From Mesotoga infera (lineage in GTDB: Bacteria > Thermotogota > Thermotogae > Petrotogales > Kosmotogaceae), in NCBI RefSeq assembly GCF_900157305.1, contig NZ_LS974202.1, positions 930,001 through 994,000 of the forward strand: 64,000 nucleotides of DNA, read 5' to 3'. The notes below the pieces were generated by a model. It did not search any database and had not been told where the DNA came from. It saw only the letters and a list, made by a program, of their open reading frames with translations. This document shows, in pieces, positions 12,025 through 64,000 of this stretch. Position numbers and translations under genes: made by a program. The stretch's first letter is position 1; each line of letters starts with the position of its first letter.

Positions 12025-13959
12025 GTGCGCCCGGCATGGTACACAACTATAGGGTGAAAGACCCGAATGTGGGGAGTCAAAGAAGCATTAGCCAGAGGCA
12101 AGGGTGTCACTGGTAACGGTGAATCTGAAGGAAGCCCGAGGCAAAGTCCGGAACTGAACGAAAGTGAACCAGAGATGGCCGTTACAGAGGGTAACCCTGC
12201 GAGATAAGGGAAAGCCCTGACTCCAGCTGTAAAGGTTCGGATGGCAGGATTCGGATGAAAGTGGTGTATCTTACCCGGGGAAGTCCTCATGAGTCCGAAA
12301 GGGGTAACCGTTAGCAAGGAGGAGATCCAAGTTAAGGGAAAGCTCAGGAGGATGGCAGATGAACCCGTAGTAGTGAAGAACCTCTCCGAAAGGAGAAGGG
12401 ACCTTGGCTATAAGCCAAGGGGGTGATGAGGAGGTCGAAAGGCTCCATCACTTGCGAAGGGGAGAAGGATCGAAGAAATGTGATCGGAAGACAGTGAAGA
12501 GACTTAGGTCAGACAGTTAAAGACAAGGTACATATTCCCGGGAGGGTAGAGAAGCCAGTCATTAATTGTCGCAACAATATCTGAGGCTGGAGCTGTTGGA
12601 AGGGAGCATGCAGGAGAAAGAGATGAAGTATTACAGTCTAATCGACAAAGTCTATTCGAAGAAGAACCTATTGAAAGCCTATCACAGGGTAAACTCCAAC
12701 AGAGGAGCTCCTGGGATAGACGGAGTAACCGTAAAATCATTCGGGGAGAAACTCCTTGAAGAAATCGAGAGATTATCCGAAGAAATCAAGAGCGGTGAGT
12801 ACATGCCCATGCCACTCAGGAGAGTAGAAATCCCAAAAGCAGATGGTAAAACAAGGCAATTGGGAATACCTACTGTGAGAGACAGGGTGGTACAACAATC
12901 TCTCAAGGAGATACTGGAACCTATATTCGAGGAAAGATTCCATCCCTCCAGTTACGGTTACAGAAAGGGAAGAAATGCCTGGCAGGCGGTGGAGAAGGCG
13001 AAAGCTTTTGCATCCAAATACGGTCTGTGCAATGTAGTGGAACTTGACCTGAGCAAATGTTTCGACACTCTGGATCATGAGAAGATAATAGACTCCGTAG
13101 CAGAGAGAGTGAGTGATGGAAAGATACTCAAACTCATACGCGCAATGCTGAAGAGCGGAGTAATGGAAGATGGAGTCTGGAAGGCAACAGAAACTGGCAG
13201 TCCACAGGGTAGTGTAATAAGTCCCCTGCTGGCGAACATCTACCTGGACGAGTTCGACCAGAAGATGAAAGCCAGAGGAATAAGGATAGTCAGATATGCA
13301 GACGACATATTAATCTTCTCGAAAACCCAGGAAGAAGCCCGAGAGTTTCTGGCAATCGCGATCAACATACTGGAGATTGACATGAAGCTCAAGGTCAACA
13401 GAAACAAGACGAGAATCACAACACTGGAGGAGGGCTTTCACTTTCTTGGCTTCGAAATAAAAGGCGAGAGAGTTGGGATAGAGAAATCCAGATTGAAAAG
13501 GTTCAAGGGAAAGGTCAAGGGACTTACAAGAAGGAACCAGAGCACACCGGTAAAGGAAATAGTGAAAGAGCTAAATCCACTGTTGAGAGGATTTGCCAGC
13601 TATTTCAGGATAGTAGACTTACAATCTACCTTGAGAGGGCTTTTGAGCTGGATAAGGAGAAGGCTTAGAGCCATCATACTACACCAGTGGAAGAGCACAA
13701 AGAAACTGAACAGAGTCCTTAGAAGGGCTGGATGGGAAGAGAAAGTCAATTTGAGAATGAACAAATGGCGCTCTTCTCACACAAAAGCAGTCAATTACGC
13801 CATTCCCAACAGGTTCTTTGAAGAGATGAACTTATTCGATATGACATCGTACTATCATCCCCTGTCGAAGTATCCGATACTCGATCCATGAGCCGTGTAC
13901 GAGGCCCGTACGCACGGTTCTGTGAGAGGACGAGGGGCTCCGCCCCTCTCCTACTCGAT
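12025..13959 (+). mobile_element. group II intron, copy 1 (intact)
   Basis: The 5' end is GTGCG, the group II consensus. A 540-nt structured RNA part precedes a maturase/reverse transcriptase ORF. A 31-nt domain V (13890-13920) folds as GAGCCGTG / CACGGTTC with an inner TACG/CGTA stem and an AGC triad. Domain VI follows (to 13959), with a GC-rich arm and the 3' end CGAT. Ends were set by comparing four copies whose similarity stops exactly at these bases. Length is 1935 nt. It sits in a repeat array, not in a gene. The AGC triad argues against a standard class C intron, although insertion after hairpins resembles class C; the class is left open. Confidence 0.93.
12566..13891 (+). CDS. ltrA: group II intron reverse transcriptase/maturase
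   Basis: A 441-residue intron-encoded protein: RT domain with RGAPGIDGVTV (RT-1), YRKGRNAWQAV, SPQGSVISPLLANIYL (RT-4, the group II form, not the SQ form of DGRs) and the catalytic RYADD (RT-5), then a maturase (X) domain with WIRRRLRAIILHQW. There is no HNH endonuclease domain, so insertion would need existing nicks or single-stranded DNA. It helps splice the intron and copies it into new sites. TTG at 12566 gives the longest frame; ATG at 12608 after GGAAGGGAG is an alternative start. Confidence 0.93.
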   Translation: MSQQYLRLELLEGSMQEKEMKYYSLIDKVYSKKNLLKAYHRVNSNRGAPGIDGVTVKSFGEKLLEEIERLSEEIKSGEYMPMPLRRVEIPKADGKTRQLGIPTVRDRVVQQSLKEILEPIFEERFHPSSYGYRKGRNAWQAVEKAKAFASKYGLCNVVELDLSKCFDTLDHEKIIDSVAERVSDGKILKLIRAMLKSGVMEDGVWKATETGSPQGSVISPLLANIYLDEFDQKMKARGIRIVRYADDILIFSKTQEEAREFLAIAINILEIDMKLKVNRNKTRITTLEEGFHFLGFEIKGERVGIEKSRLKRFKGKVKGLTRRNQSTPVKEIVKELNPLLRGFASYFRIVDLQSTLRGLLSWIRRRLRAIILHQWKSTKKLNRVLRRAGWEEKVNLRMNKWRSSHTKAVNYAIPNRFFEEMNLFDMTSYYHPLSKYPILDP

Positions 13960-14155: not shown

Positions 14156-16092
14156 GTGCGCCCGGCATGGTACACAACTATAGGGTGAAAGACCCGAATG
14201 TGGGGAGTCAAAGAAGCATTAGCCAGAGGCAAGGGTGTCACTGGTAACGGTGAATCTGAAGGAAGCCCGAGGCAAAGTCCGGAACTGAACGAAAGTGAAC
14301 CAGAGATGGCCGTTACAGAGGGTAACCCTGCGAGATAAGGGAAAGCCCTGACTCCAGCTGTAAAGGTTCGGATGGCAGGATTCGGATGAAAGTGGTGTAT
14401 CTTACCCGGGGAAGTCCTCATGAGTCCGAAAGGGGTAACCGTTAGCAAGGAGGAGATCCAAGTTAAGGGAAAGCTCAGGAGGATGGCAGATGAACCCGTA
14501 GTAGTGAAGAACCTCTCCGAAAGGAGAAGGGACCTTGGCTATAAGCCAAGGGGGTGATGAGGAGGTCGAAAGGCTCCATCACTTGCGAAGGGGAGAAGGA
14601 TCGAAGAAATGTGATCGGAAGACAGTGAAGAGACTTAGGTCAGACAGTTAAAGACAAGGTACATATTCCCGGGAGGGTAGAGAAGCCAGTCATTAATTGT
14701 CGCAACAATATCTGAGGCTGGAGCTGTTGGAAGGGAGCATGCAGGAGAAAGAGATGAAGTATTACAGTCTAATCGACAAAGTCTATTCGAAGAAGAACCT
14801 ATTGAAAGCCTATCACAGGGTAAACTCCAACAGAGGAGCTCCTGGGATAGACGGAGTAACCGTAAAATCATTCGGGGAGAAACTCCTTGAAGAAATCGAG
14901 AGATTATCCGAAGAAATCAAGAGCGGTGAGTACATGCCCATGCCACTCAGGAGAGTAGAAATCCCAAAAGCAGATGGTAAAACAAGGCAATTGGGAATAC
15001 CTACTGTGAGAGACAGGGTGGTACAACAATCTCTCAAGGAGATACTGGAACCTATATTCGAGGAAAGATTCCATCCCTCCAGTTACGGTTACAGAAAGGG
15101 AAGAAATGCCTGGCAGGCGGTGGAGAAGGCGAAAGCTTTTGCATCCAAATACGGTCTGTGCAATGTAGTGGAACTTGACCTGAGCAAATGTTTCGACACT
15201 CTGGATCATGAGAAGATAATAGACTCCGTAGCAGAGAGAGTGAGTGATGGAAAGATACTCAAACTCATACGCGCAATGCTGAAGAGCGGAGTAATGGAAG
15301 ATGGAGTCTGGAAAGGCAACAGAAAACTGGCAGTCCACAGGGTGGTGTAATAAGTCCCCTGCTGGCGAACATCTACCTGGACGAGTTCGACCAGAAGATG
15401 AAAGCCAGAGGAATAAGGATAGTCAGATATGCAGACGACATATTAATCTTCTCGAAAACCCAGGAAGAAGCCCGAGAGTTTCTGGCAATCGCGATCAACA
15501 TACTGGAGATTGACATGAAGCTCAAGGTCAACAGAAACAAGACGAGAATCACAACACTGGAGGAGGGCTTTCACTTTCTTGGCTTCGAAATAAAAGGCGA
15601 GAGAGTTGGGATAGAGAAATCCAGATTGAAAAGGTTCAAGGGAAAGGTCAAGGGACTTACAAGAAGGAACCAGAGCACACCGGTAAAGGAAATAGTGAAA
15701 GAGCTAAATCCACTGTTGAGAGGATTTGCCAGCTATTTCAGGATAGTAGACTTACAATCTACCTTGAGAGGGCTTTTGAGCTGGATAAGGAGAAGGCTTA
15801 GAGCCATCATACTACACCAGTGGAAGAGCACAAAGAAACTGAACAGAGTCCTTAGAAGGGCTGGATGGGAAGAGAAAGTCAATTTGAGAATGAACAAATG
15901 GCGCTCTTCTCACACAAAAGCAGTCAATTACGCCATTCCCAACAGGTTCTTTGAAGAGATGAACTTATTCGATATGACATCGTACTATCATCCCCTGTCG
16001 AAGTATCCGATACTCGATCCATGAGCCGTGTACGAGCCCCGTACGCACGGTTCTGTGAGAGGACGAGGGGCTCCGCCCCTCTCCTACTCGAT
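14156..16092 (+). mobile_element. group II intron, copy 2 (ORF broken)
   Basis: It starts GTGCG after a hairpin ending AGAATCTC and ends CGAT at 16092. It is 1937 nt, 2 nt longer than copy 1, with otherwise near-identical sequence including domain V. The two extra bases are single A insertions in the RT gene. The RNA parts are complete, so it might still be mobilised by maturase from the other copies. Confidence 0.92.
14697..16024 (+). pseudogene. frameshifted intron reverse transcriptase
   Basis: It matches the intact RT of copy 1 until about 15313. There, GGAAAGGC replaces GGAAGGC and, a few bases later, GAAAACTGG replaces GAAACTGG. These two single-A insertions shift the frame just before RT-4, and the first frame stops at 15350. 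The rest continues in another frame to 16024, with RYADD intact. A GTAGTG to GTGGTG change also turns Ser into Gly in the QGS motif. The protein cannot be made whole without frameshifting. Confidence 0.9.
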
Positions 16093-21197: not shown

Positions 21198-22490
21198 CTA
21201 GAGGAGTTCTCTGAGAATTCCTTCTAGCGCTCCGTAACCGAATTTTTCACTCCCTATGGAGAAGTTGTTTTCGGTTGTTGCCAGGTATTTTTGGCGGTTG
21301 AAAAGTAAATCGACCAGGTTTTTGATGGCCCTGTTAAACGCTTCTTCGGAGATTTTTACGAGTCCCTCTTCCAAAATATAGCTGTCTCCAAGGTCCACGA
21401 AGGAAAGTCCACTGTCTTCGATGTCGCTTTTAAAGACAGCATATTTGAAAAGCGCGACGGGTTTGCGTGCAAACATGGCTTCCAGGAGCTGATTGCCCCA
21501 CCCTTCAAGTATGCTGGGATAGGTTACTATGTCAGCGATACTGTAGGACTGGAAGAACTCTTCCTGCGTTTCACAACAGTGATAGGAAAGATCTACAACG
21601 TTCACGCCCAGTTTTGATGCAAGAGCGTCGATTTTTTCCCTGTATCCGAGAGATCGCTTCTCCGTAAGGCCTGTTAGAACCAGGTGAGCCCTTCCCGAAA
21701 ATTCCCGACCCGTGTAGAGACTCCTGCCCTTCAGCACGTGCGAGAGGGAGTTGAACCTGGCCACCAGTTCTACGGCAAGTTCTATGGCTTTGCGTTCCGT
21801 GACCCTGGTAGCCTGAAGAAAGACTACGTCGTTCTCGGCGATACCGGCAAGCCTTCTAAGCTGAAGATTCTTTTCCCAGGACGTCCAGGACTGTTGCGCG
21901 AAATCCATAACATTCGGCACTACAGTCGCGCGGAGCTTTCTTCTTCTCAGGAGATCACCGGCGGAGATAGAGTTTATAGTTATATGAGATACGTTCTCCA
22001 GAGAGGGCGGAAAGTACCTCTCAAGAATTTCGACGACTCCGGGGTGAGGGCTCGAATAGTAAGGTCTGTCCCACCAGAAGTCGTGGTTATGCGAGATTAA
22101 GGGTTTGCCGGAGTCTCTGGCGTACATATAAAGGGCCAGTCCAGCGGGCAAAGACCAGCCGAGCGACCAGATATTGTTGGGAACGAGTAGATCAAAACGC
22201 GAGAGTTCTCTATCGAAATCGCGAAGAAGTTCTTCGCTTCGCTCATGGATTTCTTCAAAGAGCGCCTGAGTTTCTATTTCTCCTTTTTCGTACAACCTTT
22301 CGTTCAAAGCGAGGTTTCTCACGTCGTTGTATTCTATACCCGGAATGGTTATATCGACTCCCGGACAGGAATTACCGGCCACGATCTCAACGGAGTGCCC
22401 CATGCCCGTGAGAACGGCGCGCCATTTCTCCATCTCTAGAGAGACTCCATCCATGAGTCCGGCTCTGTAGTGAATCAATCCAATTCTCAT
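21198..22490 (-). CDS. family 4-type glycosyltransferase
   Basis: A 430-residue retaining GT-B glycosyltransferase. N-terminal MRIGLIHYRAGLMDGVSLEM is the Gly-rich acceptor-side loop, and the C-terminal Rossmann half holds the donor site with the E-x7-E motif region YPSILEGWGNQLLEAM (about 345-360). It lacks signal or membrane segments, so it acts in the cytoplasm. Its stop-to-start distance of 12 nt to the upstream GH127 gene makes one transcription unit. Donor and acceptor are unknown. Confidence 0.82.
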   Translation of the reverse strand: MRIGLIHYRAGLMDGVSLEMEKWRAVLTGMGHSVEIVAGNSCPGVDITIPGIEYNDVRNLALNERLYEKGEIETQALFEEIHERSEELLRDFDRELSRFDLLVPNNIWSLGWSLPAGLALYMYARDSGKPLISHNHDFWWDRPYYSSPHPGVVEILERYFPPSLENVSHITINSISAGDLLRRRKLRATVVPNVMDFAQQSWTSWEKNLQLRRLAGIAENDVVFLQATRVTERKAIELAVELVARFNSLSHVLKGRSLYTGREFSGRAHLVLTGLTEKRSLGYREKIDALASKLGVNVVDLSYHCCETQEEFFQSYSIADIVTYPSILEGWGNQLLEAMFARKPVALFKYAVFKSDIEDSGLSFVDLGDSYILEEGLVKISEEAFNRAIKNLVDLLFNRQKYLATTENNFSIGSEKFGYGALEGILRELL

Positions 22491-49735: not shown

Positions 49736-50671
49736 TTATAAGATCGACCTGTATCTGTAGAAGATTTTCCCGACGTATTCACACCTTTCCACATCGCCTC
49801 TAGAAGATAGTTTTTCAAAAAAAACTTCGGCCGAACCCGGACCGAACCGCGAGCGAAGAAGGCTTTCTATATCTTCTTGCGACATGGGGTGCCGCTTTAT
49901 GATCTCGATAACGGTGCTCTCCGCATCACTTTCGCGCGATAGAAAATTGCTAACTGGCATATTCTCGATGCTCGTAGCACCCAATAATTCACGCGCAAGT
50001 TTCAAAGTAGCGATATCCGGTATTTTGACGCCATCTTCGGCCGGTGGTCTTGCAGGAACATTTATATACACTCTCTCCGTTTTGACTCTGGAAATACGCT
50101 CCTTCAAAAGCATAAGAGACTCTTCGTCGTCGTTATAACCCTTTACGAGCATGACCTCTAGCCATAACTCTCCGTCGAACTTTCTGGAAAAGTCCACCAG
50201 GCCTTCGTAAACCTCTTCATACTCGAGCTTTCCGAGCGGTCTGTTGATGCATCTGAAACTTTCCTGGTCGTAAGCGTCAAGTGTCGGCATCACGATATCG
50301 AAACCAGAGATCTCGTCCCTGAGGTCTTCGTCGAAGAGAAGCGATCCGTTGGTGATCAGCACGAGTGGTTTGAAAGTCAACTTCCTGATCGCTTCTGCCA
50401 GTTGATCAAGGGGTCTGTAAAGTGTGGGTTCGCCCTCGCCCACGACAGTTACAACGTCGAAACTCTCATCGCCCTTCTCGTTCACGAAATCCCTGACCTG
50501 GTTTATTATCTCCCCGGGAGGGTAGAAACTCGTGCGGGTGTTAGTCATGTTTGTCGTTCTTCCAAGCTGGCAATAAATACATGAATAATTGCAGGTCTTG
50601 AAGGGAATCGTTGACACGCCCAGCGACCTGCCCAATCTCCGCGAAGGCACAACACCGTACACGTGAGTCAT
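49736..50671 (-). CDS. radical SAM protein
   Basis: A 311-residue protein with the radical-SAM cluster motif CNYSCIYC (CxxxCxxC, about 27-34), VTVVGEGEPTLY (SAM-binding GGE-type loop) and a barrel. The C-terminal 70 residues look like a winged helix (HPMSQEDIESLLRSRFG). It resembles the COG0731/wyosine-like group, but the substrate cannot be told. ATG with GAGAGGTTG upstream. Its first ~100 nt are duplicated in truncated form at 52107-52207. Confidence 0.85.
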   Translation of the reverse strand: MTHVYGVVPSRRLGRSLGVSTIPFKTCNYSCIYCQLGRTTNMTNTRTSFYPPGEIINQVRDFVNEKGDESFDVVTVVGEGEPTLYRPLDQLAEAIRKLTFKPLVLITNGSLLFDEDLRDEISGFDIVMPTLDAYDQESFRCINRPLGKLEYEEVYEGLVDFSRKFDGELWLEVMLVKGYNDDEESLMLLKERISRVKTERVYINVPARPPAEDGVKIPDIATLKLARELLGATSIENMPVSNFLSRESDAESTVIEIIKRHPMSQEDIESLLRSRFGPGSAEVFFEKLSSRGDVERCEYVGKIFYRYRSIL

Positions 50672-50986
50672 GAAAGCAACCTCTCTTTACAACAAAAGAT
50701 CCATAGATATTATATCACCACATATATGTCTGAGACATATATTTGTAATCATATCTTTTACATTGAAAAAGAGAGCTTGTTGCATCTGTAAGGAAAGACT
50801 ATAAGCGATTTTCCGGATGTTACTGCGGAAAAACTTTTAGTGGAGAATGGTTGTTTGTACGAACAAAATGTTTACTGGTTGGGTATGAACATTTTTCCAA
50901 TTCTTCCTTTCTCGATGAATAACGACTATTTCTTAAGTCAAACATATAAGTCTAGATTGTAGAATTGAAGTGAATGGAGGTGGATT
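50672..50986. other. intergenic region with a 9-bp inverted repeat
   Basis: 315 nt, AT-rich. ATATATGTC-TGA-GACATATAT at 50722-50742 is a perfect 9-bp palindrome with a 3-nt centre, 50 nt upstream of the radical SAM start; a probable binding site of a dimeric regulator. GGAGGTGG precedes the ATG of the next gene at 50987. No gene is seen. Confidence 0.55.
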
Positions 50987-52078
50987 ATGAAAAGATTGGC
51001 TTTAGCGACGCTGATAGTTTTTTTCTCCAGCATGGCGGCAGCCTTTTATGGTAGTTTTGGAGGAGAGAGGAGCGAAGAACTTCTCGATGTTATTAGAGTT
51101 TCCGATACGTTCATTGCTGTGGGCTTCTCCGAGCATTACGAAGAACCTTATATCGAGACGCTAGCGATTAAGCTTGACCTGGATGGAGGAGTTTTGTGGA
51201 CAAAGGAGTTCGGTAGCATGGGCGATGACCTGGGGAGATGTGTTGTCGCGATAGACGATAACCATTATTTCTTGGTATCGCGAACCGAAAGCGCTGGAAA
51301 TGCAAAACTCCTAATAGCTATGATTAACGGGGAAGGCGATCTCATATGGCAGAAGAACCATGGTAAGAACAGTGATTATTCTCCGTGGAGCGTCATTAAC
51401 ACCGGAGATGGCTTTGTCGTTGCAGGACAGTGCGCTACCGATAGGAATTACTTTCAGGCCAGTTTATTGAAAATTGAAACCTCCGGTAAAATCGTCTGGG
51501 AGAAGGATTTCGGCAAGAATGATTTCGACGCCGCGATCGATGTAATTCTGCTTTCAGATGGAAAATTGCTCGTTACGGGATATAGCTGGGTCGAAGATCA
51601 TCAGTACCTCTGGCTTGCAAAACTGGATTCAACGGGAAGGCTTATCTGGCAAAAGCTTTTGGGCAAAAAGGATGGGTTGCATCTCGAAGGAAGGGGTCTT
51701 GCCGAAGTCGAGAACGGTTATTTGGTGGCCGGTGTTGCGAGCGATTTTTCGGGGTCGGCCTATATTGCTAAGGTTGATCCATCGGGAGAACTTCTCAACG
51801 AGGTCTTTCTAGACGATAAATTCCCCGCCGTTCTGGCGCTTGCAAAAGATAATGAAAGCTATGTTGCGCTACTTTCATTCGTAACCGTCGCTGAGGAAGG
51901 ATTTGGACTGGTTCGAATCAACGAGGACGGAGAGATCATACAAGAGAAGGTTTTCAAGGTTGGATCTTTCGAGCCGCATTCGTTCGCCAGACTGGATTCG
52001 GGTAAATTTCTCGTGGTCGGAACGAGATCAAATGACTCAAAAGGAAGACAGGCTTACTGGACATCGGCAGAATTCTAA
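50987..52078 (+). CDS. secreted beta-propeller-like repeat protein
   Basis: A 363-residue protein with signal peptide ([17 protein letters not shown]) and about six repeats of the form GG-x-LWTKEFG...D, e.g. [40 protein letters not shown], each ~45-50 residues with a V(V/A)G strand. This is the layout of PQQ-like or delta-60 propeller repeats, usually ligand-binding or structural surface proteins. GGAGGTGG 6 nt before ATG. It is bracketed by the true radical SAM gene and its truncated copy, so it may have been inserted or duplicated there. Confidence 0.75.
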
Positions 52079-52106
52079 GATTACCGAAGAATCGCTGAAA
52101 GAGCTG

Positions 52107-52207
52107 CTATAAATACAGGGATAATTGCAGGTCTTGAAGGGAATCGTTGACACACCCAGCGACCTGCCCAATTTTTGCGAGGGCACAACACCGTATATAT
52201 GAGTCAT
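52107..52207 (-). pseudogene. truncated copy of the radical SAM gene 5' end
   Basis: The minus-strand ATG at 52207 opens [20 protein letters not shown] and continues to CNYPCIY, matching the start of the radical SAM protein at 50671 with a few changes (R to Q/K, S to P); then it diverges (SSSFSD). DNA is about 90% alike over roughly 100 nt, and the flanking GAGTCATGAA is shared. It is a remnant of duplication or recombination. It lies just 34 nt from the stop of the first FGE-domain gene. Confidence 0.85.
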
Positions 52208-52240
52208 GAAGAGCACCCCCCATATTAAATAGAGCTCAAA

Positions 52241-52376
52241 TTACTGCACCGTCCTGCAAATACGGAAGCCCAGATAGTGGCTCGTGTAAGTAGGGGTGTA
52301 GAAGCTGCGGTAAGCCACACGCGCGACCGCCTCAATGTTGACCCAACTACCGCTACGATACACCCGGTTGGAACCA
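52241..52376 (-). other. variable region VR1 (putative DGR target)
   Basis: Codons from GGT TCC to the stop. Compared with VR2 and VR3, changes cluster in AAC-derived-looking codons: for example AAC/TAC/CGC, TAT/CTT/GTT, CAC/TAC/AAC and TAT/GGC/GAC. The 3' part GTATTTGCAGGACGGTG is invariant, as expected for an initiation-of-homology site. The 3' side after TAA is unlike VR2/VR3. Confidence 0.75.
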
Positions 52377-53698
52377 TTGTTGCTATTATAAGAGTTTGTC
52401 TGTGCCGAGCTCGAGTATGAAACATACCAGTCACTACACCACTCCCATACATTTCCAGACATATCATAGATCCCCAGCTCGTTAGGTAACTTCTTCCCAA
52501 CTTCCTGTGTCTTGCTTCCCGAGTTCGAAGTGTACCAGGCTACGTCATTAACGTTGTCGCTGCCAGCAAACTTGTAACCCCTGCTCTTGTTCCCTCCTCT
52601 TGCCGCGTATTCCCATTCGGCCTCTGTCGGCAGTCTGTAGCCTACTACCTTCGACGGATCAGTCGTTATCCTTCCGTCTTTATCCAGCAGATTTCCGTTG
52701 CTGTCATACGCCTTCGGAAGTTTCTCCTTCTCGCTCAGCCAGTTGCAGTATGCTACCGCATCGTTCCAACTGACGTTAATTACAGGTCTGGTTTCCCTTC
52801 CCCAGTTATTGTCGGATGGCTTGCTTCTTCCTGTTGCTTCACAGAAAATGTCGTATTCTTCGAAAGTCACTTCATACTTGCCTATATAGAAGTCATATGT
52901 GAAAGTCACTGTATGAACCGGTTTCTCATCACTATATCCGTCTCCCCATGTATCTCCCATCGTGAAACTGCCTTTCTCCACAAGTACCATGTTTTGAAGA
53001 TCATTAGTTGCTACCTGAGAAGAAATCGGTTCTATGTCTCCAGATGTGTTTTCTTTCAAGAAAACAATGCTCTTTATCTTTCCGGGCGATACTCCAAGCT
53101 CACTTCCAGACAACAACCTGAACACTATGAAATCATCCTTTATCGTTCCCTTTATCTCAGATCCACCTTCAAACTTCACTTTCGTAAGTACGTTCCCGTC
53201 TCCCTCGAACTCCATGCTTATGAGGTTATCCGTCTTTATCTTGATCTCTGCATATGATGATTGCACTGTTGCCTGAGTAGATAGTACCTCTCCATAGAAC
53301 TGATCTCCTGTCTTGAGTGAGACATGTACTATGCTCTGATCCACAGTCCGTTTCTGGTTATACATGTCTATCCTGCTTATGAAATCTTTATGGAACTTGA
53401 GGGGTGACCCTTCGAACTCAAGTGTGATGTACTCATCCAGAAGAAAACCGCTGAAGGTTTCTCTCTCATATACGGTAGAAAGAGTAGTAGCCATGCTTCC
53501 TGGTGCTGGGAAGACTATCTCTTTCACGAAAGTGACCGGTATCTTGAACTCCCCGTAGTCTGTTATGAAAGAGATACTCTCCATGCTTATCTCACATTCG
53601 ATCACATCTCCATTCCTCATCTGGATTCTAGCTCCCGTATTCGCTATTACCAGAACAGAGAGCAAAAGGACCGAGACTACTATCATGGCTTTCTTCAT
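52241..53698 (-). CDS. secreted FGE-sulfatase/C-type-lectin-fold protein 1 with variable C-terminus
   Basis: About 485 residues. Signal peptide (KKAMIVVSVLLLSVLVIAN), an N-terminal part (25-230) of SH3-like beta repeats (RMQNGDVIECEIS-type RNGDVIECEIS, GDQFYGEVLST, GSEIKGTIKDDFIVFRLL), then an FGE-sulfatase domain (VEKGSFTMGDTWGD, YDFYIGKYEVTFEEY, RPVINVSWNDAVAYCNWLSE, RLPTEAEWEYAARGG, LGIYDMSGNVWEWCSDW). The last 45 residues (VR1) are the most changed part relative to the paralogues and end FRICRTVQ. ATG at 53698 after GAAGGGGGAAG. The fold is that of DGR-diversified receptors; enzymatic FGE activity is unlikely. Confidence 0.85.
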   Translation of the reverse strand: MKKAMIVVSVLLLSVLVIANTGARIQMRNGDVIECEISMESISFITDYGEFKIPVTFVKEIVFPAPGSMATTLSTVYERETFSGFLLDEYITLEFEGSPLKFHKDFISRIDMYNQKRTVDQSIVHVSLKTGDQFYGEVLSTQATVQSSYAEIKIKTDNLISMEFEGDGNVLTKVKFEGGSEIKGTIKDDFIVFRLLSGSELGVSPGKIKSIVFLKENTSGDIEPISSQVATNDLQNMVLVEKGSFTMGDTWGDGYSDEKPVHTVTFTYDFYIGKYEVTFEEYDIFCEATGRSKPSDNNWGRETRPVINVSWNDAVAYCNWLSEKEKLPKAYDSNGNLLDKDGRITTDPSKVVGYRLPTEAEWEYAARGGNKSRGYKFAGSDNVNDVAWYTSNSGSKTQEVGKKLPNELGIYDMSGNVWEWCSDWYVSYSSSAQTNSYNSNNGSNRVYRSGSWVNIEAVARVAYRSFYTPTYTSHYLGFRICRTVQ

Positions 53699-53772
53699 TT
53701 CTCTTCCCCCTTCTTGACTCAAGGCTTTCATAGCAGTTGAATAGTCCGGTTTCTCATTATCTGTGTCTTCTC

Positions 53773-53801
53773 GCGCTTGCGGGCTACTCCGTGCCCGGCG
53801 C
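53773..53801 (-). other. hairpin downstream of VR2
   Basis: Minus strand GCGC-CGGGC, loop ACGGAGTA, GCCCG-CAA-GCGC. It lies 55 nt after the FGE2 stop codon and corresponds to the hairpin at 55394-55426, with compensatory changes (CGGGC/GCCCG against GGGGC/GCCCC). No T-run follows, so it is not a normal terminator. Confidence 0.7.
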
Positions 53802-53855
53802 TCGAAGCCACAGTAAGCAGTAAAGGGTAATAACGTAAAAAGGCTAAAGTGTAAA

Positions 53856-53990
53856 TCAGGGCACCGTCCTGCAAATACGGAAGCCGAGGCCGTAGTACGT
53901 GTAAGTGGGGCTGCTGTTGCCGCGAAGCGCTACCCGCACGCGCGTCGCAATGCTGTTCCAGCTACCGCCACGAAGCACCCGGTAGGAACC
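53856..53990 (-). other. variable region VR2 (putative DGR target)
   Basis: From GGT TCC to TGA. Against VR3, 19 differences fall on codon positions 1 and 2 and only 4 on position 3, the reverse of normal divergence. The stop and following 14 nt (TGATTTACACTTTAG) match VR3 almost perfectly. Confidence 0.8.
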
Positions 53991-55307
53991 ACTATTGTTA
54001 TACGGATTCGTCTGTGCAGAACTGGAGTAGCTTCCCTTCCAGTCGCTGCACCACTCCCACACGTTTCCAGACATATCGTACAGCCCCAGCTCGTTAGGTA
54101 ACTTCTTTCCAACTTCCTGGGTCTTGCTTCCCGAGTTCGAAGTGTACCAGGCTACGTCACCGACGTTATCGCTACCGGAATACTTGTATCCGTTGCTCTT
54201 GTTCCCACCTCTGGCTGCGTATTCCCATTCGGCTTCGGTCGGCAACCTGTAACCGACGACCTTCGACGGATCGCTCGTTATTCTTCCGTCTTTGTCCAGC
54301 AAATTCCCGTTATTGTCATATGCCTTCGGAAGTTTCTCCTTCTCGCTCAGCCAGTTGCAGTATGCTATTGCATCCCACCAGCTCACGTTTATTACAGGTC
54401 TCTTTCCCCTTCCCCAACCGTTATCAGATGGTTTGCTCCTACCCATAGCCTCACAGAAAGCGTCGTATTCGTCGAATGTAGTCTCATACTTGCCCATGTA
54501 GAAGTCGTAGGTGAACGTGACCTTGTGGGTTGGTTTTTCATCACTTTCTCCTCCACCCCACGTGTCGCCCATCGTGAAACTGCCTTTATCTACAAACACC
54601 ATGTTACCTGAAGTCTGAAAGAAACTTGAAGAGGAAACCTGAATAACTCCGGATTCTGTTTTCTTTAGAAACAGTATGCTCTTTATCTTTCCGGGTGATA
54701 CTCCAAGCTCGCTTCCAGATAACAGCCTGAATACTATGAAATCATCCTTTATCGTTCCATTCATTTCGCTGCCATTATTGATCTTTATCTTTGTCAGTAC
54801 ATTCCCTTCTCCTTCGAACTCCATTCCTTCTATGTCCTCTGTGGCTATTTCCAATTCTACATACGATGTCTGTATCTTTACAACGGGAGAAAGCATCTCT
54901 CCATAGAACTGGTCTCCTGTCTTCAGATATACCTGAACGAGTTCTTGAGTGATTATCCGACTATCGTTGTATATGTTTATTCTGTTTATCGCATCTTTAT
55001 GGAATCTGATTGGATTGCCAAGCAGTGAGATTGATATGTACTCGTCCAGAAGAAAGCCACCGAAGGTTTCATTGGGAAAGACCGTGTTCAGAGTCGTTAC
55101 CCTATTACCCGGAGCAGGAAATACTATCTCTTTCACGAAAGAGACCGGTATCTTGAACTCCCCGTAGTCTGTTATGAACGAGATGTTCTCCATGCTTATC
55201 TCACACTCGATCACATCTCCATTCCTCATCTGGATTCTCGCCCCTGTATTCGCTATCACCATAACAGAGAGCAAAAGGACCGAGACTACTATCATGGCTT
55301 TCTTCAT
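53856..55307 (-). CDS. secreted FGE-sulfatase/C-type-lectin-fold protein 2 with variable C-terminus
   Basis: A 483-residue close paralogue of protein 1: identical signal peptide apart from one residue, the same N-terminal repeats, FGE domain (VDKGSFTMGDTWGG, YDFYMGKYETTFDEY, WEYAARGGNKSNGYK, DMSGNVWEWCSDW) and the variable end FRICRTVP. Much of the FGE domain is nearly identical in DNA to protein 1 (e.g. around 52500-52560 against 54115-54175), so duplication or conversion is recent. ATG at 55307 after GAGGGGGAAG. The spacer to protein 1 is 157 nt and holds a hairpin. Confidence 0.85.
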   Translation of the reverse strand: MKKAMIVVSVLLLSVMVIANTGARIQMRNGDVIECEISMENISFITDYGEFKIPVSFVKEIVFPAPGNRVTTLNTVFPNETFGGFLLDEYISISLLGNPIRFHKDAINRINIYNDSRIITQELVQVYLKTGDQFYGEMLSPVVKIQTSYVELEIATEDIEGMEFEGEGNVLTKIKINNGSEMNGTIKDDFIVFRLLSGSELGVSPGKIKSILFLKKTESGVIQVSSSSFFQTSGNMVFVDKGSFTMGDTWGGGESDEKPTHKVTFTYDFYMGKYETTFDEYDAFCEAMGRSKPSDNGWGRGKRPVINVSWWDAIAYCNWLSEKEKLPKAYDNNGNLLDKDGRITSDPSKVVGYRLPTEAEWEYAARGGNKSNGYKYSGSDNVGDVAWYTSNSGSKTQEVGKKLPNELGLYDMSGNVWEWCSDWKGSYSSSAQTNPYNNSGSYRVLRGGSWNSIATRVRVALRGNSSPTYTYYGLGFRICRTVP

Positions 55308-55393
55308 TTCTCTTCCCCCTCTTGTTTACCAAAGCTTTCAATGCATTCAAATGGTTTAGTTTCTCAGTATCTGACTATTATCTGCGTCTTCTT

Positions 55394-55426
55394 GCGCCTC
55401 TGGGGCACAAGCCCACGCCCCGGCGC
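55394..55426 (-). other. hairpin downstream of VR3
   Basis: Minus strand GCGCC-GGGGC, loop GTGGGCTTGT, GCCCC-AGA-GGCGC, 48 nt after the FGE3 stop. Same position and shape as the VR2 hairpin, with paired changes. Confidence 0.7.
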
Positions 55427-55473
55427 TCGAAGCCGCAGCACAGGGTAAAAATGTATAAAGGCTAGAGTGTAAA

Positions 55474-55608
55474 TCAGGGCACCGTCCTGCAAATACGAAA
55501 CCCGAGGTCGTTGTACGTGTAAGTGGGCGAGTAGCTGAAGCGAATCGCTACCCGTACGTCCGTCGCATTGCTGCTCCAGCCACCGCCACGAACCGCCCGG
55601 CGGGAACC
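55474..55608 (-). other. variable region VR3 (putative DGR target)
   Basis: From GGT TCC to TGA; see VR2. Codons such as CGC, GTT, GAC, TTC and TAC replace other NNC/NNT codons in VR1 and VR2, while the invariant blocks CGTGGCGGT, CGGGTAGCG and CCCACTTACACG are kept. Confidence 0.8.
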
Positions 55609-56955
55609 GACAGTGCTATTGTAAAAATCAGTCTTCGCGGTACTCGTATATGAGGCATAGTAATCCGAACACCATTCCCATACATTTCCGCTCATATCGT
55701 ATAAACCCAGACTGTTCGGCTTTTTCATGCCCACCGGTTGAGGTTTTTGTTCTGAGTTAGATGAATACCATGCTATTTCGTCTATATCATCGCTTCCCGA
55801 GTATCTGTATCTGTCTTTATTCGGTCCACCTCTAGCCGCGTATTCCCATTCCGCTTCTGTCGGCAATCTATATCCGATAACCTTAGAGGGATTTGTCGTT
55901 ACGTTTCCATCTTCATCTAGGAAGTTTCCCTCGTTATCATATGCTTTTGGAAGGCCTTCTTTTTCGCTCAACCAGTTGCAATATGCTATCGCCTCCAACC
56001 AGCTGACATTTATGACAGGTCTCTGGCCTCTCCCCCAGCCTTCATCTGAAGGTCTCTGCATTCCAGCGTCTATGAAGAAGTCGTCGTACTCATCGAAAGT
56101 GACTTCATACTTACCTATATAGAAATCATAAGTGAAGGTAACTTTCGAAAGAGGCGTTTCTTTGCCATCCGATATATCCCCGAGAGTGAAACTGCCTTTC
56201 TCCACAAGCACCATATTGTGGGGTATCTCTACAGGTGCTTCCTCCCCGGGAAGAAAATCGGGAAACTCTTTTACTTCCGGCGCTTCGGCCAGCTCCATAG
56301 TAGAGAAGTCTATTGCTCTGATCTTTCCCGGGGCTATACTGAGCTCTGCCCCGGAGAGTAGCCTGACTACTATGAAGTCGTCTTTCACGATACCTCGCAT
56401 CTCAGAACCACTTTTTAGGGTCGTTTTTGTGAGGACATTACCTTCTCCTTCGAATTCCATCATGGTTATGTTGTCCATACTCAGCGTAAAAATACCATAC
56501 GATGTTTGAACGCCGAGTTCTTGCGAGAGCATCTTTGCGTAGAATTGCTCGCCGGTTTTCAGCATTACCTGAACGGCTCCCCCGGTTATCTCCTTATCCT
56601 CTACCAGGAGCTCGACCCAGCTAACGGTGTCCTTGTGAAACCTTACAGCCATGCCTTCAAATTCGGCGTTGATATATTCTTCCAGAAGGAAGCCCCTGAA
56701 GATCTCGTTTTTGTGGATAGTCTTCAGAGATGTGATGATAGTCCCGGAGGTGGGGAAGACTATCGCCTTAACGAACTCCATCGGCATTTGGAACTCGCCA
56801 TAATCACTTATGAAGGAAATTCTATCCATTGTGACGTTACACTCGATTATGTCGCTGTTTCTCATACGCAGTCTCGCCGGTATAGAAGCTCCCAGGAGCG
56901 CGGTAGCGCAGATCAGCATTATCACAACAAAGATTATTCTTCTCACGGAAATCAC
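55474..56955 (-). CDS. secreted FGE-sulfatase/C-type-lectin-fold protein 3 with variable C-terminus
   Basis: A 493-residue paralogue, more diverged than 1 and 2. Signal peptide (RIIFVVIMLICATALLGAS), the same SH3-like beta region, an insert rich in Pro/Glu (APEVKEFPDFLPGEEAPVEI), the FGE domain (VEKGSFTLGDISDG, RLPTEAEWEYAARGG, DMSGNVWEWCSDY) and VR3 ending FRICRTVP. GTG at 56955 lies close to GAAAGGTG; GTG at 56946 is an alternative. It starts 8 nt from the stop of the upstream gene, so the FGE genes belong to the operon of the three genes upstream. Confidence 0.83.
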   Translation of the reverse strand: MISVRRIIFVVIMLICATALLGASIPARLRMRNSDIIECNVTMDRISFISDYGEFQMPMEFVKAIVFPTSGTIITSLKTIHKNEIFRGFLLEEYINAEFEGMAVRFHKDTVSWVELLVEDKEITGGAVQVMLKTGEQFYAKMLSQELGVQTSYGIFTLSMDNITMMEFEGEGNVLTKTTLKSGSEMRGIVKDDFIVVRLLSGAELSIAPGKIRAIDFSTMELAEAPEVKEFPDFLPGEEAPVEIPHNMVLVEKGSFTLGDISDGKETPLSKVTFTYDFYIGKYEVTFDEYDDFFIDAGMQRPSDEGWGRGQRPVINVSWLEAIAYCNWLSEKEGLPKAYDNEGNFLDEDGNVTTNPSKVIGYRLPTEAEWEYAARGGPNKDRYRYSGSDDIDEIAWYSSNSEQKPQPVGMKKPNSLGLYDMSGNVWEWCSDYYASYTSTAKTDFYNSTVGSRRAVRGGGWSSNATDVRVAIRFSYSPTYTYNDLGFRICRTVP

Positions 56956-56962
56956 ACACCTT

Positions 56963-58129
56963 TCAGAAATCGACGGATATCTTCTTCGCTTTCTTGAGGA
57001 GCTCCTTATTCAGTGTTATTCGCCATACAAGCCTCTGGGGCTGGACGTTGATCTTCAGGACTCCCGGCTCTATGTATAGTGGGGCAGGGGCTATGATTAC
57101 CTGGTTACTCTTCTGGCCTGTATAAATCATCCCAAGCCCTGGGGCATTGAGAAGCAGACCACCCTGAGCAAGATTTTTCAAATCACTGCTGAAGAGAATA
57201 CTTCCCATTTCATCTTTCAAAGTGAGAAGAAATTCGTAACTCCGAATAGAATCGACATGTCTTTTGAACTGCTCCCAGACTGAGTACTCAATATCGTCTT
57301 TCGCTGAAAAGAAATACGTTTTTAGAGATATCTTTCGATCATTTCTTTCTTCAAGAACCCTAACAACGTACCGGCAATCCTGATCGTTAATGAGGCTGGA
57401 TAGTTCCACTCTCAGCCAGCTGTCTGCCTGTTCGAGTTTCATGGCCTGTGTTATCTGTTTTGACGCTACCATATCCAAGATTTCCGAAAGCTCATTTATC
57501 AGGCCTTTAAAGCTTTCAACATCCGGTTCTAGATCTACCGTTACTTCCAGTACTGCATTTTCATCGTCGGTGCTTACGATAGCTGTGGTTATTTCGCCAA
57601 TCCTCCAGAACCCTTTTGGAGTATCGAAATCGTTCAGAATGGATTCAGTGAGTTTCGCTGCGTTTTCCACCGTCTGTGTATTTGCTTCGAAGAGTGCAAG
57701 CAATTTGTCACCCTGGAAATCTTTCACACCTATCCTGTTCCTGAGCATGGTAGCTTCGAGTGCCCTGAGCCTTACATTCGCAATTATCGTAATCTCAACC
57801 ATCCCAGATAACTCAGAAATGGAGGTTATTTCGTAGTCTTTTATGTATGCTCTGCTGAAGGTCAAAATGTTTTCCTTGAACTCTTCGGTGTAAACAAGAC
57901 CCGATGCGTCTATTGTGAGGCTTGAATCAAGACTTGAGTAAGATCTGACCAGGATTCCCGTTGCAAGCTCAAGCGAATGTTTAATCGCGTTATCCGTCGC
58001 CTCTTCAAGAGTGTTTCCGTAACCGATCGCCACAATCTCAACCGTATCGTCTGTACTTGCAAATACGGGTAAAGTAATGAGGATCGCTATTATCAATAAG
58101 AGATATTTGTAGCTATTATTTTTTGTCAT
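56963..58129 (-). CDS. secreted LPP20/CsgG-like protein of unknown function
   Basis: About 388 residues. Signal peptide (KYLLLIIAILITLPVFAS), then VEIVAIGYGNTLEEATDNAI, the GyG..eeA..dA motif of LPP20-type domains that sit in envelope lipoproteins, followed by beta-rich repeats and a final helix rich in Lys. No lipobox. ATG at 58129 has GAAAGG 10 nt ahead and overlaps the previous gene by 14 nt; a TTG at 58150 has no ribosome site. It probably forms an envelope complex with its neighbours and may present the FGE proteins; this is inference. Confidence 0.68.
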   Translation of the reverse strand: MTKNNSYKYLLLIIAILITLPVFASTDDTVEIVAIGYGNTLEEATDNAIKHSLELATGILVRSYSSLDSSLTIDASGLVYTEEFKENILTFSRAYIKDYEITSISELSGMVEITIIANVRLRALEATMLRNRIGVKDFQGDKLLALFEANTQTVENAAKLTESILNDFDTPKGFWRIGEITTAIVSTDDENAVLEVTVDLEPDVESFKGLINELSEILDMVASKQITQAMKLEQADSWLRVELSSLINDQDCRYVVRVLEERNDRKISLKTYFFSAKDDIEYSVWEQFKRHVDSIRSYEFLLTLKDEMGSILFSSDLKNLAQGGLLLNAPGLGMIYTGQKSNQVIIAPAPLYIEPGVLKINVQPQRLVWRITLNKELLKKAKKISVDF

Positions 58130-60636: not shown

Positions 60637-62571
60637 ATCGAGTAGGAGAGGGGCGGAGCCCCTCGTCCTCTCACAGAACCGTGCGTACGGGCCTCGTACA
60701 CGGCTCATGGATCGAGTATCGGATACTTCGACAGGGGATGATAGTACGATGTCATATCGAATAAGTTCATCTCTTCAAAGAACCTGTTGGGAATGGCGTA
60801 ATTGACTGCTTTTGTGTGAGAAGAGCGCCATTTGTTCATTCTCAAATTGACTTTCTCTTCCCATCCAGCCCTTCTAAGGACTCTGTTCAGTTTCTTTGTG
60901 CTCTTCCACTGGTGTAGTATGATGGCTCTAAGCCTTCTCCTTATCCAGCTCAAAAGCCCTCTCAAGGTAGATTGTAAGTCTACTATCCTGAAATAGCTGG
61001 CAAATCCTCTCAACAGTGGATTTAGCTCTTTCACTATTTCCTTTACCGGTGTGCTCTGGTTCCTTCTTGTAAGTCCCTTGACCTTTCCCTTGAACCTTTT
61101 CAATCTGGATTTCTCTATCCCAACTCTCTCGCCTTTTATTTCGAAGCCAAGAAAGTGAAAGCCCTCCTCCAGTGTTGTGATTCTCGTCTTGTTTCTGTTG
61201 ACCTTGAGCTTCATGTCAATCTCCAGTATGTTGATCGCGATTGCCAGAAACTCTCGGGCTTCTTCCTGGGTTTTCGAGAAGATTAATATGTCGTCTGCAT
61301 ATCTGACTATCCTTATTCCTCTGGCTTTCATCTTCTGGTCGAACTCGTCCAGGTAGATGTTCGCCAGCAGGGGACTTATTACACTACCCTGTGGACTGCC
61401 AGTTTCTGTTGCCTTCCAGACTCCATCTTCCATTACTCCGCTCTTCAGCATTGCGCGTATGAGTTTGAGTATCTTTCCATCACTCACTCTCTCTGCTACG
61501 GAGTCTATTATCTTCTCATGATCCAGAGTGTCGAAACATTTGCTCAGGTCAAGTTCCACTACATTGCACAGACCGTATTTGGATGCAAAAGCTTTCGCCT
61601 TCTCCACCGCCTGCCAGGCATTTCTTCCCTTTCTGTAACCGTAACTGGAGGGGTGGAATCTTTCCTCGAATATAGGTTCCAGTATCTCCTTGAGAGATTG
61701 TTGTACCACCCTGTCTCTCACAGCAGGTATTCCCAATTGCCTTGTTTTACCATCTGCTTTTGGGATTTCTACTCTCCTGAGTGGCATGGGCATGTACTCA
61801 CCGCTCTTGATTTCTTCGGATAATCTCTCGATTTCTTCGAGGAGTTTCTCCCCGAATGATTTTACGGTTACTCCGTCTATCCCAGGAGCTCCTCTGTTGG
61901 AGTTTACCCTGTGATAGGCTTTCAATAGGTTCTTCTTCGAATAGACTTTGTCGATTAGACTGTAATACTTCATCTCTTTCTCCTGCATGCTCCCTTCCAA
62001 CAGCTCCAGCCTCAGATATTGTTGCGACAATTAATGACTGGCTTCTCTACCCTCCCGGGAATATGTACCTTGTCTTTAACTGTCTGACCTAAGTCTCTTC
62101 ACTGTCTTCCGATCACATTTCTTCGATCCTTCTCCCCTTCGCAAGTGATGGAGCCTTTCGACCTCATCATCACCCCCTTGGCTTATAGCCAAGGTCCCTT
62201 CTCCTTTCGGAGAGGTTCTTCACTACTACGGGTTCATCTGCCATCCTCCTGAGCTTTCCCTTAACTTGGATCTCCTCCTTGCTAACGGTTACCCCTTTCG
62301 GACTCATGAGGACTTCCCCGGGTAAGATACACCACTTTCATCCGAATCCTGCCATCCGAACCTTTACAGCTGGAGTCAGGGCTTTCCCTTATCTCGCAGG
62401 GTTACCCTCTGTAACGGCCATCTCTGGTTCACTTTCGTTCAGTTCCGGACTTTGCCTCGGGCTTCCTTCAGATTCACCGTTACCAGTGACACCCTTGCCT
62501 CTGGCTAATGCTTCTTTGACTCCCCACATTCGGGTCTTTCACCCTATAGTTGTGTACCATGCCGGGCGCAC
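60637..62571 (-). mobile_element. group II intron, copy 3 (intact)
   Basis: 1935 nt, same length as copy 1, on the minus strand. GTGCG at 62571 directly follows a hairpin ending AGAATCCC (62572-62598); the 3' end CGAT is at 60637. Domain V and VI are unchanged. Very few differences from copy 1 mean a recent spread. Confidence 0.93.
60705..62030 (-). CDS. ltrA: group II intron reverse transcriptase/maturase (copy 3)
   Basis: A 441-residue intact protein, same as copy 1 except for one Thr to Ala change in GIPAVRDRV. All RT motifs (SPQGSVISP, RYADD) and the maturase domain are kept; no endonuclease domain. Confidence 0.92.
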   Translation of the reverse strand: MSQQYLRLELLEGSMQEKEMKYYSLIDKVYSKKNLLKAYHRVNSNRGAPGIDGVTVKSFGEKLLEEIERLSEEIKSGEYMPMPLRRVEIPKADGKTRQLGIPAVRDRVVQQSLKEILEPIFEERFHPSSYGYRKGRNAWQAVEKAKAFASKYGLCNVVELDLSKCFDTLDHEKIIDSVAERVSDGKILKLIRAMLKSGVMEDGVWKATETGSPQGSVISPLLANIYLDEFDQKMKARGIRIVRYADDILIFSKTQEEAREFLAIAINILEIDMKLKVNRNKTRITTLEEGFHFLGFEIKGERVGIEKSRLKRFKGKVKGLTRRNQSTPVKEIVKELNPLLRGFASYFRIVDLQSTLRGLLSWIRRRLRAIILHQWKSTKKLNRVLRRAGWEEKVNLRMNKWRSSHTKAVNYAIPNRFFEEMNLFDMTSYYHPLSKYPILDP

Positions 62572-63236
62572 GGGATTCTGAGTCAAGCTCAGAATGACGG
62601 GAAGGGAGTAAGACTGTCATCCCGTAGTGTCCCCATGGAGCCTGCCCTGAAATGCTCCTATTCAGGGTCATCCCGTAGTGCTCCTATACGGGATCTCGCT
62701 CTTACCAGGAACCAACAACGAACAACCAACAACCGCTCTTATCATCCCAATATGGTTCTCGCTCAGAAGAGCCGTCCTTCGTTGTTCGTCCCAGATCATG
62801 GACCCGTCCTTGGAAGAGGAGTTTCTCGTTCCGACGCTGCGAGTCCAGGTTCCTCGCTCTTGGTTCAAGACAGAGGAAAGAGCGGGATTCTGAGTCAAGC
62901 TCAGAATGACGGGAAGGAAGGAAAGACTGTCATCCCGTGGTGTCCCCGTACTGTCATCCCGTAGTGTTCCTATACGGGATCTCGTTCTTACCAGGAACCA
63001 ACAACGAACAACCAACAACCGCTCTTATCATCCCAATATGGTTCTCGCTCAACGGTTGGATCACCGACGATACGCACGTCGGTTTCTCCAGTTTCCATCC
63101 CACTATGGTTCTCGCTCAGAAGAGCCGTCCTTCGTTGTTCGTCCCAGATCATGGACCCGTCCTTGGAAGAGGAGTTTCTCGTTCCGACGCTGCGAGTCCA
63201 GGTTCCTCGCTCTTGGTTCAAGACAGAGGAAAGAGC
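62572..63236. repeat. composite repeat array with an uninterrupted intron target
   Basis: Hairpin repeats of the ATTCTGAG/CTCAGAAT family at 62572-62600 and 62884-62912 and of the ATCCCGTA/TACGGGAT family at about 62670-62695 and 62950-62985, together with two direct copies of a ~120-nt module (62764-62882 and 63117-63235; AGAAGAGCCGTCCTTCGTTG ... GACAGAGGAAAGAG). The second copy ends at intron 4. A third, inverted copy is at about 13960-14085. Short pieces CCAACAACGAACAACC repeat at 62710 and 63000. No gene. Confidence 0.85.
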
Positions 63237-64000
63237 ATCGAGTAGGAGAGGGGCGGAGCCCCTCGTCCTCTCACAGAACCGTGCGTACGGGCCTCGTACA
63301 CGGCTCATGGATCGAGTATCGGATACTTCGACAGGGGATGATAGTACGATGTCATATCGAATAAGTTCATCTCTTCAAAGAACCTGTTGGGAATGGCGTA
63401 ATTGACTGCTTTTGTGTGAGAAGAGCGCCATTTGTTCATTCTCAAATTGACTTTCTCTTCCCATCCAGCCCTTCTAAGGACTCTGTTCAGTTTCTTTGTG
63501 CTCTTCCACTGGTGTAGTATGATGGCTCTAAGCCTTCTCCTTATCCAGCTCAAAAGCCCTCTCAAGGTAGATTGTAAGTCTACTATCCTGAAATAGCTGG
63601 CAAATCCTCTCAACAGTGGATTTAGCTCTTTCACTATTTCCTTTACCGGTGTGCTCTGGTTCCTTCTTGTAAGTCCCTTGACCTTTCCCTTGAACCTTTT
63701 CAATCTGGATTTCTCTATCCCAACTCTCTCGCCTTTTGTTTCGAAGCCAAGAAAGTGAAAGCCCTCCTCCAGTGTTGTGATTCTCGTCTTGTTTCTGTTG
63801 ACCTTGAGCTTCATGTCAATCTCCAGTATGTTGATCGCGATTGCCAGAAACTCTCGGGCTTCTTCCTGGGTTTTCGAGAAGATTAATATGTCGTCTGCAT
63901 ATCTGACTATCCTTATTCCTCTGGCTTTCATCTTCTGGTCGAACTCGTCCAGGTAGATGTTCGCCAGCAGGGGACTTATTACACTACCCTGTGGACTGCC
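63237..64000 (-). mobile_element. group II intron, copy 4 (5' part outside window)
   Basis: The 3' end CGAT at 63237 is followed (minus strand) by GCTCTTTCCTCTG, the same flank as copy 1. Domain V/VI and 3' RT half match the other copies; the 5' portion runs past the window edge, so its target hairpin is not visible. Confidence 0.92.
63305..64000 (-). CDS. ltrA: group II intron reverse transcriptase, C-terminal part (cut by window edge)
   Basis: The frame is open from the window edge to the stop at 63305: SPQGSVISP, RYADD and the maturase domain are present. One change from copy 1 is Ile to Thr in FETKGER. Whether the N-terminal half is intact cannot be seen. Confidence 0.88.
   Translation of the reverse strand, partial: GSPQGSVISPLLANIYLDEFDQKMKARGIRIVRYADDILIFSKTQEEAREFLAIAINILEIDMKLKVNRNKTRITTLEEGFHFLGFETKGERVGIEKSRLKRFKGKVKGLTRRNQSTPVKEIVKELNPLLRGFASYFRIVDLQSTLRGLLSWIRRRLRAIILHQWKSTKKLNRVLRRAGWEEKVNLRMNKWRSSHTKAVNYAIPNRFFEEMNLFDMTSYYHPLSKYPILDP

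Follow-up and report, generated by a model that had tools for sequence, protein, structure and literature searches.

Tandem FGE-sulfatase-domain genes and their hairpins

Within the window (the whole 64,000-nucleotide stretch of Mesotoga infera DNA that was analyzed), the minus strand carries a tandem array of three FGE-sulfatase-domain genes (Table 1). As the PF03781 domain reaches the gene end, the variable region described below lies inside the FGE/C-type-lectin-like domain. The upstream and middle genes are each followed by a hairpin, while no hairpin was found behind the stop codon of the third gene. Right behind the third gene, positions 52106 to 52210 are a 90% copy of positions 50570 to 50674 (105 nt), which belong to the beginning of a radical-SAM-like gene; because this copy sits there instead, the trailer of the third gene was probably lost by rearrangement.

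Table 1. Features of the three FGE genes and their trailers in the window (DGR, diversity-generating retroelement)
Feature	Position	Strand	Basis and details
FGE-sulfatase-domain gene, upstream, 493 aa	55474..56955	-	Pfam PF03781, E 2e-52
FGE-sulfatase-domain gene, middle, 483 aa	53856..55307	-	Pfam PF03781, E 3.7e-55
FGE-sulfatase-domain gene, third, 496 aa	52241..53731	-	Pfam PF03781, E 8e-58
DGR-type variable gene end, upstream gene	55474..55602	-	Codon-position entropy
DGR-type variable gene end, middle gene (last 43 codons with stop)	53856..53984	-	Codon-position entropy
DGR-type variable gene end, third gene, without hairpin behind	52241..52369	-	Codon comparison
Conserved spacer between stop codon and hairpin, upstream gene	55439..55473	-	Alignment
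Conserved spacer between stop codon and hairpin (TTTACACTTTAGCCTTTTTACG...), middle gene	53814..53855	-	Alignment, identity 0.85 among copies
Hairpin behind upstream gene	55382..55438	-	57 nt, core 55394-55426; folding, covariance-model match
Hairpin behind middle gene	53761..53813	-	53 nt, 18 pairs, core 53773-53801; folding, relatives' copies, pair table

The original prediction had placed two hairpins at the core positions, about 50 nt after the stop codons and with no T-run behind them. Both hairpins are present there on the minus strand, although the prediction captured only their inner halves, as each stem runs further outward. The distance is roughly correct for the cores (54 nt for the middle and 47 nt for the upstream gene), whereas the full hairpins stand 42 and 35 nt past the stop codon, respectively. 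From the outside inward, the stem consists of CTGYG/CRCAG, a G.A mismatch, CTTC/GAAG, a GA/GA or GA/AA internal loop, and GCGC/GCGC; a 3-nt bulge in the 3' arm then leads to the inner GC stem, which is closed by an 8-nt loop, ACGRAGTA, conserved in most copies. The whole comprises approximately 18 pairs. The hairpin behind the upstream gene is a variant in which the inner stem and loop differ from those behind the middle gene. Differences between the two nevertheless preserve pairing, both outside (CTGCG/CGCAG versus CTGTG/CACAG) and inside (GGGGC/GCCCC versus CGGGC/GCCCG).

Compared with dinucleotide shuffles, the single DNA strands gave z scores of -4.6 (middle gene) and -4.9 (upstream gene). 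When 57-nt folds were compared at 21,316 positions taken from the two strands of the window, the hairpin behind the upstream gene was the most stable and that behind the middle gene ranked within the top 12, a ranking that ruled out a chance fold. A strong GC-rich stem past a stop codon could also be a simple transcript end, but as predicted neither hairpin is followed by a T-run, intrinsic terminator prediction made no call at either, and one of them ends approximately 30 nt ahead of the next possible start codon. An intrinsic terminator was rejected for want of the T-run, and a simple transcript end is very improbable. An integron attC site was likewise rejected, as neither window hairpin has GTT or AAC on the sense strand and the core site GTTRRRY is thus missing. 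No match to Rfam was obtained for positions 52000 to 57000 up to an E value of 1.

Copies across Mesotoga and preservation of pairing

A DNA query consisting of the hairpin only identified copies in four other Mesotoga genomes. A covariance model, with matches accepted at E values up to 1, detected 15 copies or remnants in 10 Mesotoga genomes; 10 of these copies had served to build it. Thirteen lie directly behind FGE-type genes with a hypervariable 3' end (some of the genes being decayed or truncated), with position, spacer, and orientation alike, against a chance expectation of approximately 0.0004 copies behind such gene ends; duplication relates many of the copies, so arguments from conservation carry less weight. 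The other two are located outside the window but in its own genome (G000), at mcrC-like genes without a variable region (G000:C1:1159913-1159971 and 1173256-1173308). At both loci the hairpin forms the last codons of the mcrC-like frame and is followed by a flank known from behind the FGE hairpins of relatives. These copies look like a rearranged DGR remnant.

Across 103 genomes of the phylum, the sole match outside Mesotoga was in G010, which belongs to another genus of the same family, and it too stands behind an FGE gene. A scan of genome contigs with a loose hairpin pattern returned matches in unrelated genomes, which were discarded as chance, and one exact match among viral contigs fell inside a coding sequence on a phage-like contig that is unrelated. 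FGE genes on a Haliscomenobacter plasmid had no comparable hairpin. In another Thermotogota family, FGE genes with DGR-like variable ends (L369, G039:C79, at 184 and 4980) have different strong hairpins some 35 to 55 nt past the stop codon.

In an alignment restricted to Mesotoga, in which most copies are near-identical, 95% of cells pair, and two pairs were changed on both sides, a count equaled by 87 of 500 shuffles. When G010 was added, none of 500 shuffles reached the observed percentage paired and five reached the number of pair types, although these counts are optimistic, since the copies are kin. Aligned by hand, G010 has two double compensatory changes (T-A to C-G and C-G to A-T), a T-A pair in place of the G.A mismatch, and one inserted G-C pair; the two outermost pairs are lost, but the architecture is kept. 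Aligning the downstream regions of homologues, the check proposed with the prediction, revealed modest covariation within the genus and preserved pairing in a second one. The claim that structure is selected holds on the strength of the G010 copy, whose architecture survives the double compensatory changes and the inserted pair.

The two mcrC copies, which have no variable region beside them, could be taken to mean that the hairpin is a mobile palindrome of the REP kind, or a recombination site used by a 197-aa tyrosine recombinase whose gene adjoins some copies, and that it stands behind the FGE genes incidentally. Also in keeping with this is GGAGTAGCC, which constitutes the loop and stem start of the hairpin; at the two mcrC loci and in G004 it is joined to the tyrosine recombinase gene end. 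The G004 copy of the hairpin is cut at precisely this motif, and recombination at the hairpin is possible. However, 13 of the 15 copies occupy one place behind variable ends, with one spacer and orientation, rather than being scattered, and the letters of the attC core are missing, so that an incidental mobile element appears improbable. The end of the 197-aa tyrosine recombinase gene adjoins GGAGTAGCC(A/G)GCTGTTATAA at L183 (11134-11764), L186 (14263-14971), and L187 (7597-8308).

Variable gene ends and the conserved module

The codon comparison covered 15 gene ends, all of the same length. At 14 hypervariable codons, mean entropy was 1.78, 1.54, and 0.72 bits at positions 1, 2, and 3, respectively, compared with 0.49, 0.33, and 0.86 in the remaining codons. 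Positions 1 and 2 of the hypervariable codons thus change and position 3 does so much less, the reverse of ordinary coding drift. Judged from the sequences, this is the pattern predicted for adenine mutagenesis of AAY codons and, as in a DGR target, it places a 3' variable region altered at adenine-type codon positions in these genes. A computed rate of adenine mismatches was set aside as circular, A having been assigned at the sites concerned.

Among five relatives, identity was 0.90 within the hairpin and, beyond it, dropped first to 0.67 and later to 0.35. The end of the variable region, a spacer of approximately 35 to 45 nt, and the hairpin make up a fixed module, and the conserved block stops at the hairpin; the module recurs behind genes with different fronts and before different neighbors. 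Behind the hairpin, a frame start, MAFRIITVPFDN or similar, is common to G002, G005, G009, and the mcrC copies. In G009 this frame is decayed, continuing with stop codons as FPDNEINNFLLDKKVKSY..KPFWGVFLEYEE, which we take to resemble an HRDC-type DGR accessory; the start of a DGR-type accessory gene hence seems to stand behind the hairpin in relatives. Querying with the accessory remnant, its stop positions filled with guessed residues, gave no match in plasmids, phages, viral contigs, or the genome itself, in a search that had no positive control.

The main rival to a role in DGR targeting is an mRNA element. Formed in the transcript, the hairpin would stop 3' exonucleases or allow the tandem FGE genes to be expressed separately, and it would accompany variable genes only because gene and trailer duplicate together. 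The window hairpin between co-oriented genes suits such a role. So does a count by hand of the one-sided transition-type changes in intact copies, of which six of six gave G.U in the sense strand and none gave A.C (p of approximately 0.016), but this bias is expected for an RNA hairpin and for a sense-strand DNA hairpin alike. The hairpin is tied to hypervariable gene ends and not to genes in general, and two copies (G005:C63 and G009:C12) have no co-oriented gene directly after them, which makes the mRNA element an unlikely explanation, if still the leading one among the rivals.

DGR machinery and comparison with known systems

In the complete genome G000, 18 matches to RVT_1 were found, but only group II-looking enzymes were returned and no cognate DGR-type reverse transcriptase; the 441-aa reverse transcriptase in the window has a group II maturase domain. 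The best G000 match to a DGR-type enzyme shared 32 to 34% identity, and other families of the phylum gave weaker matches, at 33% identity or less. No template repeat was found in G000, where queries with the variable regions and a reconstructed template returned only gene ends and hairpins; outside Mesotoga, the matches to this search that were inspected were FGE gene ends, not templates. A short reconstructed-template peptide had no match in plasmids or phages, for which the low-complexity filter is perhaps responsible. FGE relatives on viral contigs had no reverse transcriptase nearby by tblastn and motif search, leaving no intact FGE-type DGR for comparison. Across the Mesotoga genomes, neither a cognate DGR reverse transcriptase nor a template repeat was found, and the only DGR-type enzyme in the genus belongs to a prophage of G002 and G007, where the template is a different one.

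This prophage-type DGR is apparently intact at L206 (G002:C212, 728-3681) and L205 (G007:C277, 701-3917), in a run of phage-like genes, and consists of a variable-end target, an avd-like gene, an AAC-rich template, and a reverse transcriptase. It resides in the same genus as the FGE loci and likewise has a variable target end, together with a template containing AAC codons, the avd-like gene, and the DGR-type reverse transcriptase. However, its template and target family (RAALRGG..W..IGLRAAL) are different and it has no copy of the FGE-type hairpin, and thus it cannot serve FGE-type targets.

Tests of DGR target hairpins were found in a single paper, on Bordetella phage BPP-1, whose DGR requires a hairpin downstream of the variable repeat, with structure and not stem sequence being what matters; the published consensus for phage DGR hairpins is a 7- to 10-bp stem with a 4-nt GRNA loop (PMC3240598). 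Like the BPP-1 target site (IMH plus downstream hairpin/cruciform; Guo et al. 2011, PMC3240598), the Mesotoga sites have a GC-rich hairpin past the 3' end of a variable gene, in which stem letters change while structure is kept and loop letters are conserved in most Mesotoga copies. In contrast to BPP-1, there are approximately 18 pairs in stacked stems, an 8-nt ACGRAGTA loop, a 3-nt bulge, and a GA/GA internal loop, and the window hairpins stand 35 to 42 nt past the stop codon in a genome without a cognate reverse transcriptase or template. The hairpin is therefore a structure-selected, GC-rich one downstream of a variable region, but it is not classed as phage type because its stem length and loop differ.

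Chromosomal DGRs of Treponema denticola include an HRDC accessory gene and, in some strains, orphan targets (PMC4891356). The Mesotoga loci share with them chromosomal DGR-type targets, a putative HRDC-type accessory, and targets left without a reverse transcriptase or template. No hairpin is described for T. denticola in that paper, and most of its DGR strains retain the core (PMC4891356), whereas no Mesotoga member was found with a core of the matching type. Moreover, where T. denticola has an HRDC gene, Mesotoga has a remnant, presumably of such an accessory.

Taken with the hypervariable FGE ends beside 13 of the 15 copies, the end of the conserved block at the hairpin, and the accessory start, these comparisons suggest that the hairpin is probably a DGR target-recognition element that has been orphaned in the window's genome. 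The DGR parallel, originally put forward as only suggestive, is stronger than that, but a working DGR is unsupported. Because a reverse transcriptase and a template repeat were sought and not found in G000, the hairpin is not classed as part of a working DGR, and with neither component detectable a present role in target recognition cannot be demonstrated for this strain. By this reading, adenine-type mutagenesis by a DGR would have diversified the FGE gene ends. By analogy with BPP-1, the hairpin or a cruciform may mark the end of the variable region, at which a retrohoming complex would swap in a mutated cDNA made from the template repeat in place of the gene end. The DGR was most likely then lost, leaving the two window hairpins as orphan target sites, which perhaps could still be used if a matching DGR re-enters.

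A conserved, covarying hairpin is now seen behind chromosomal genes of Thermotogota, where target genes appear to have outlived their DGR, and our literature search found no paper naming both Mesotoga and DGRs. Methods that start from the reverse transcriptase miss orphan DGR targets, and the hairpin offers a tag by which to search for them. More tentatively, the long bulged hairpin with its conserved 8-nt loop might define a separate class of target element for chromosomal DGRs, with spare cassettes tagged throughout a genus in which no cognate DGR is now found. We hold this proposal to be doubtful; if it is true, many genes could be diversified in trans by a visiting DGR.

The window also contains near-identical copies of a group II intron reverse transcriptase/maturase, some of them broken (12566-13891, 14697-16024, 60705-62030, and 63305-63931). 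Between two of the group II copies, positions 62571 to 63236 hold direct repeats of 41 to 141 nt with a GGTTCTCGCTCA motif, which resembles one in CRISPR-like arrays elsewhere in the genome (L215).
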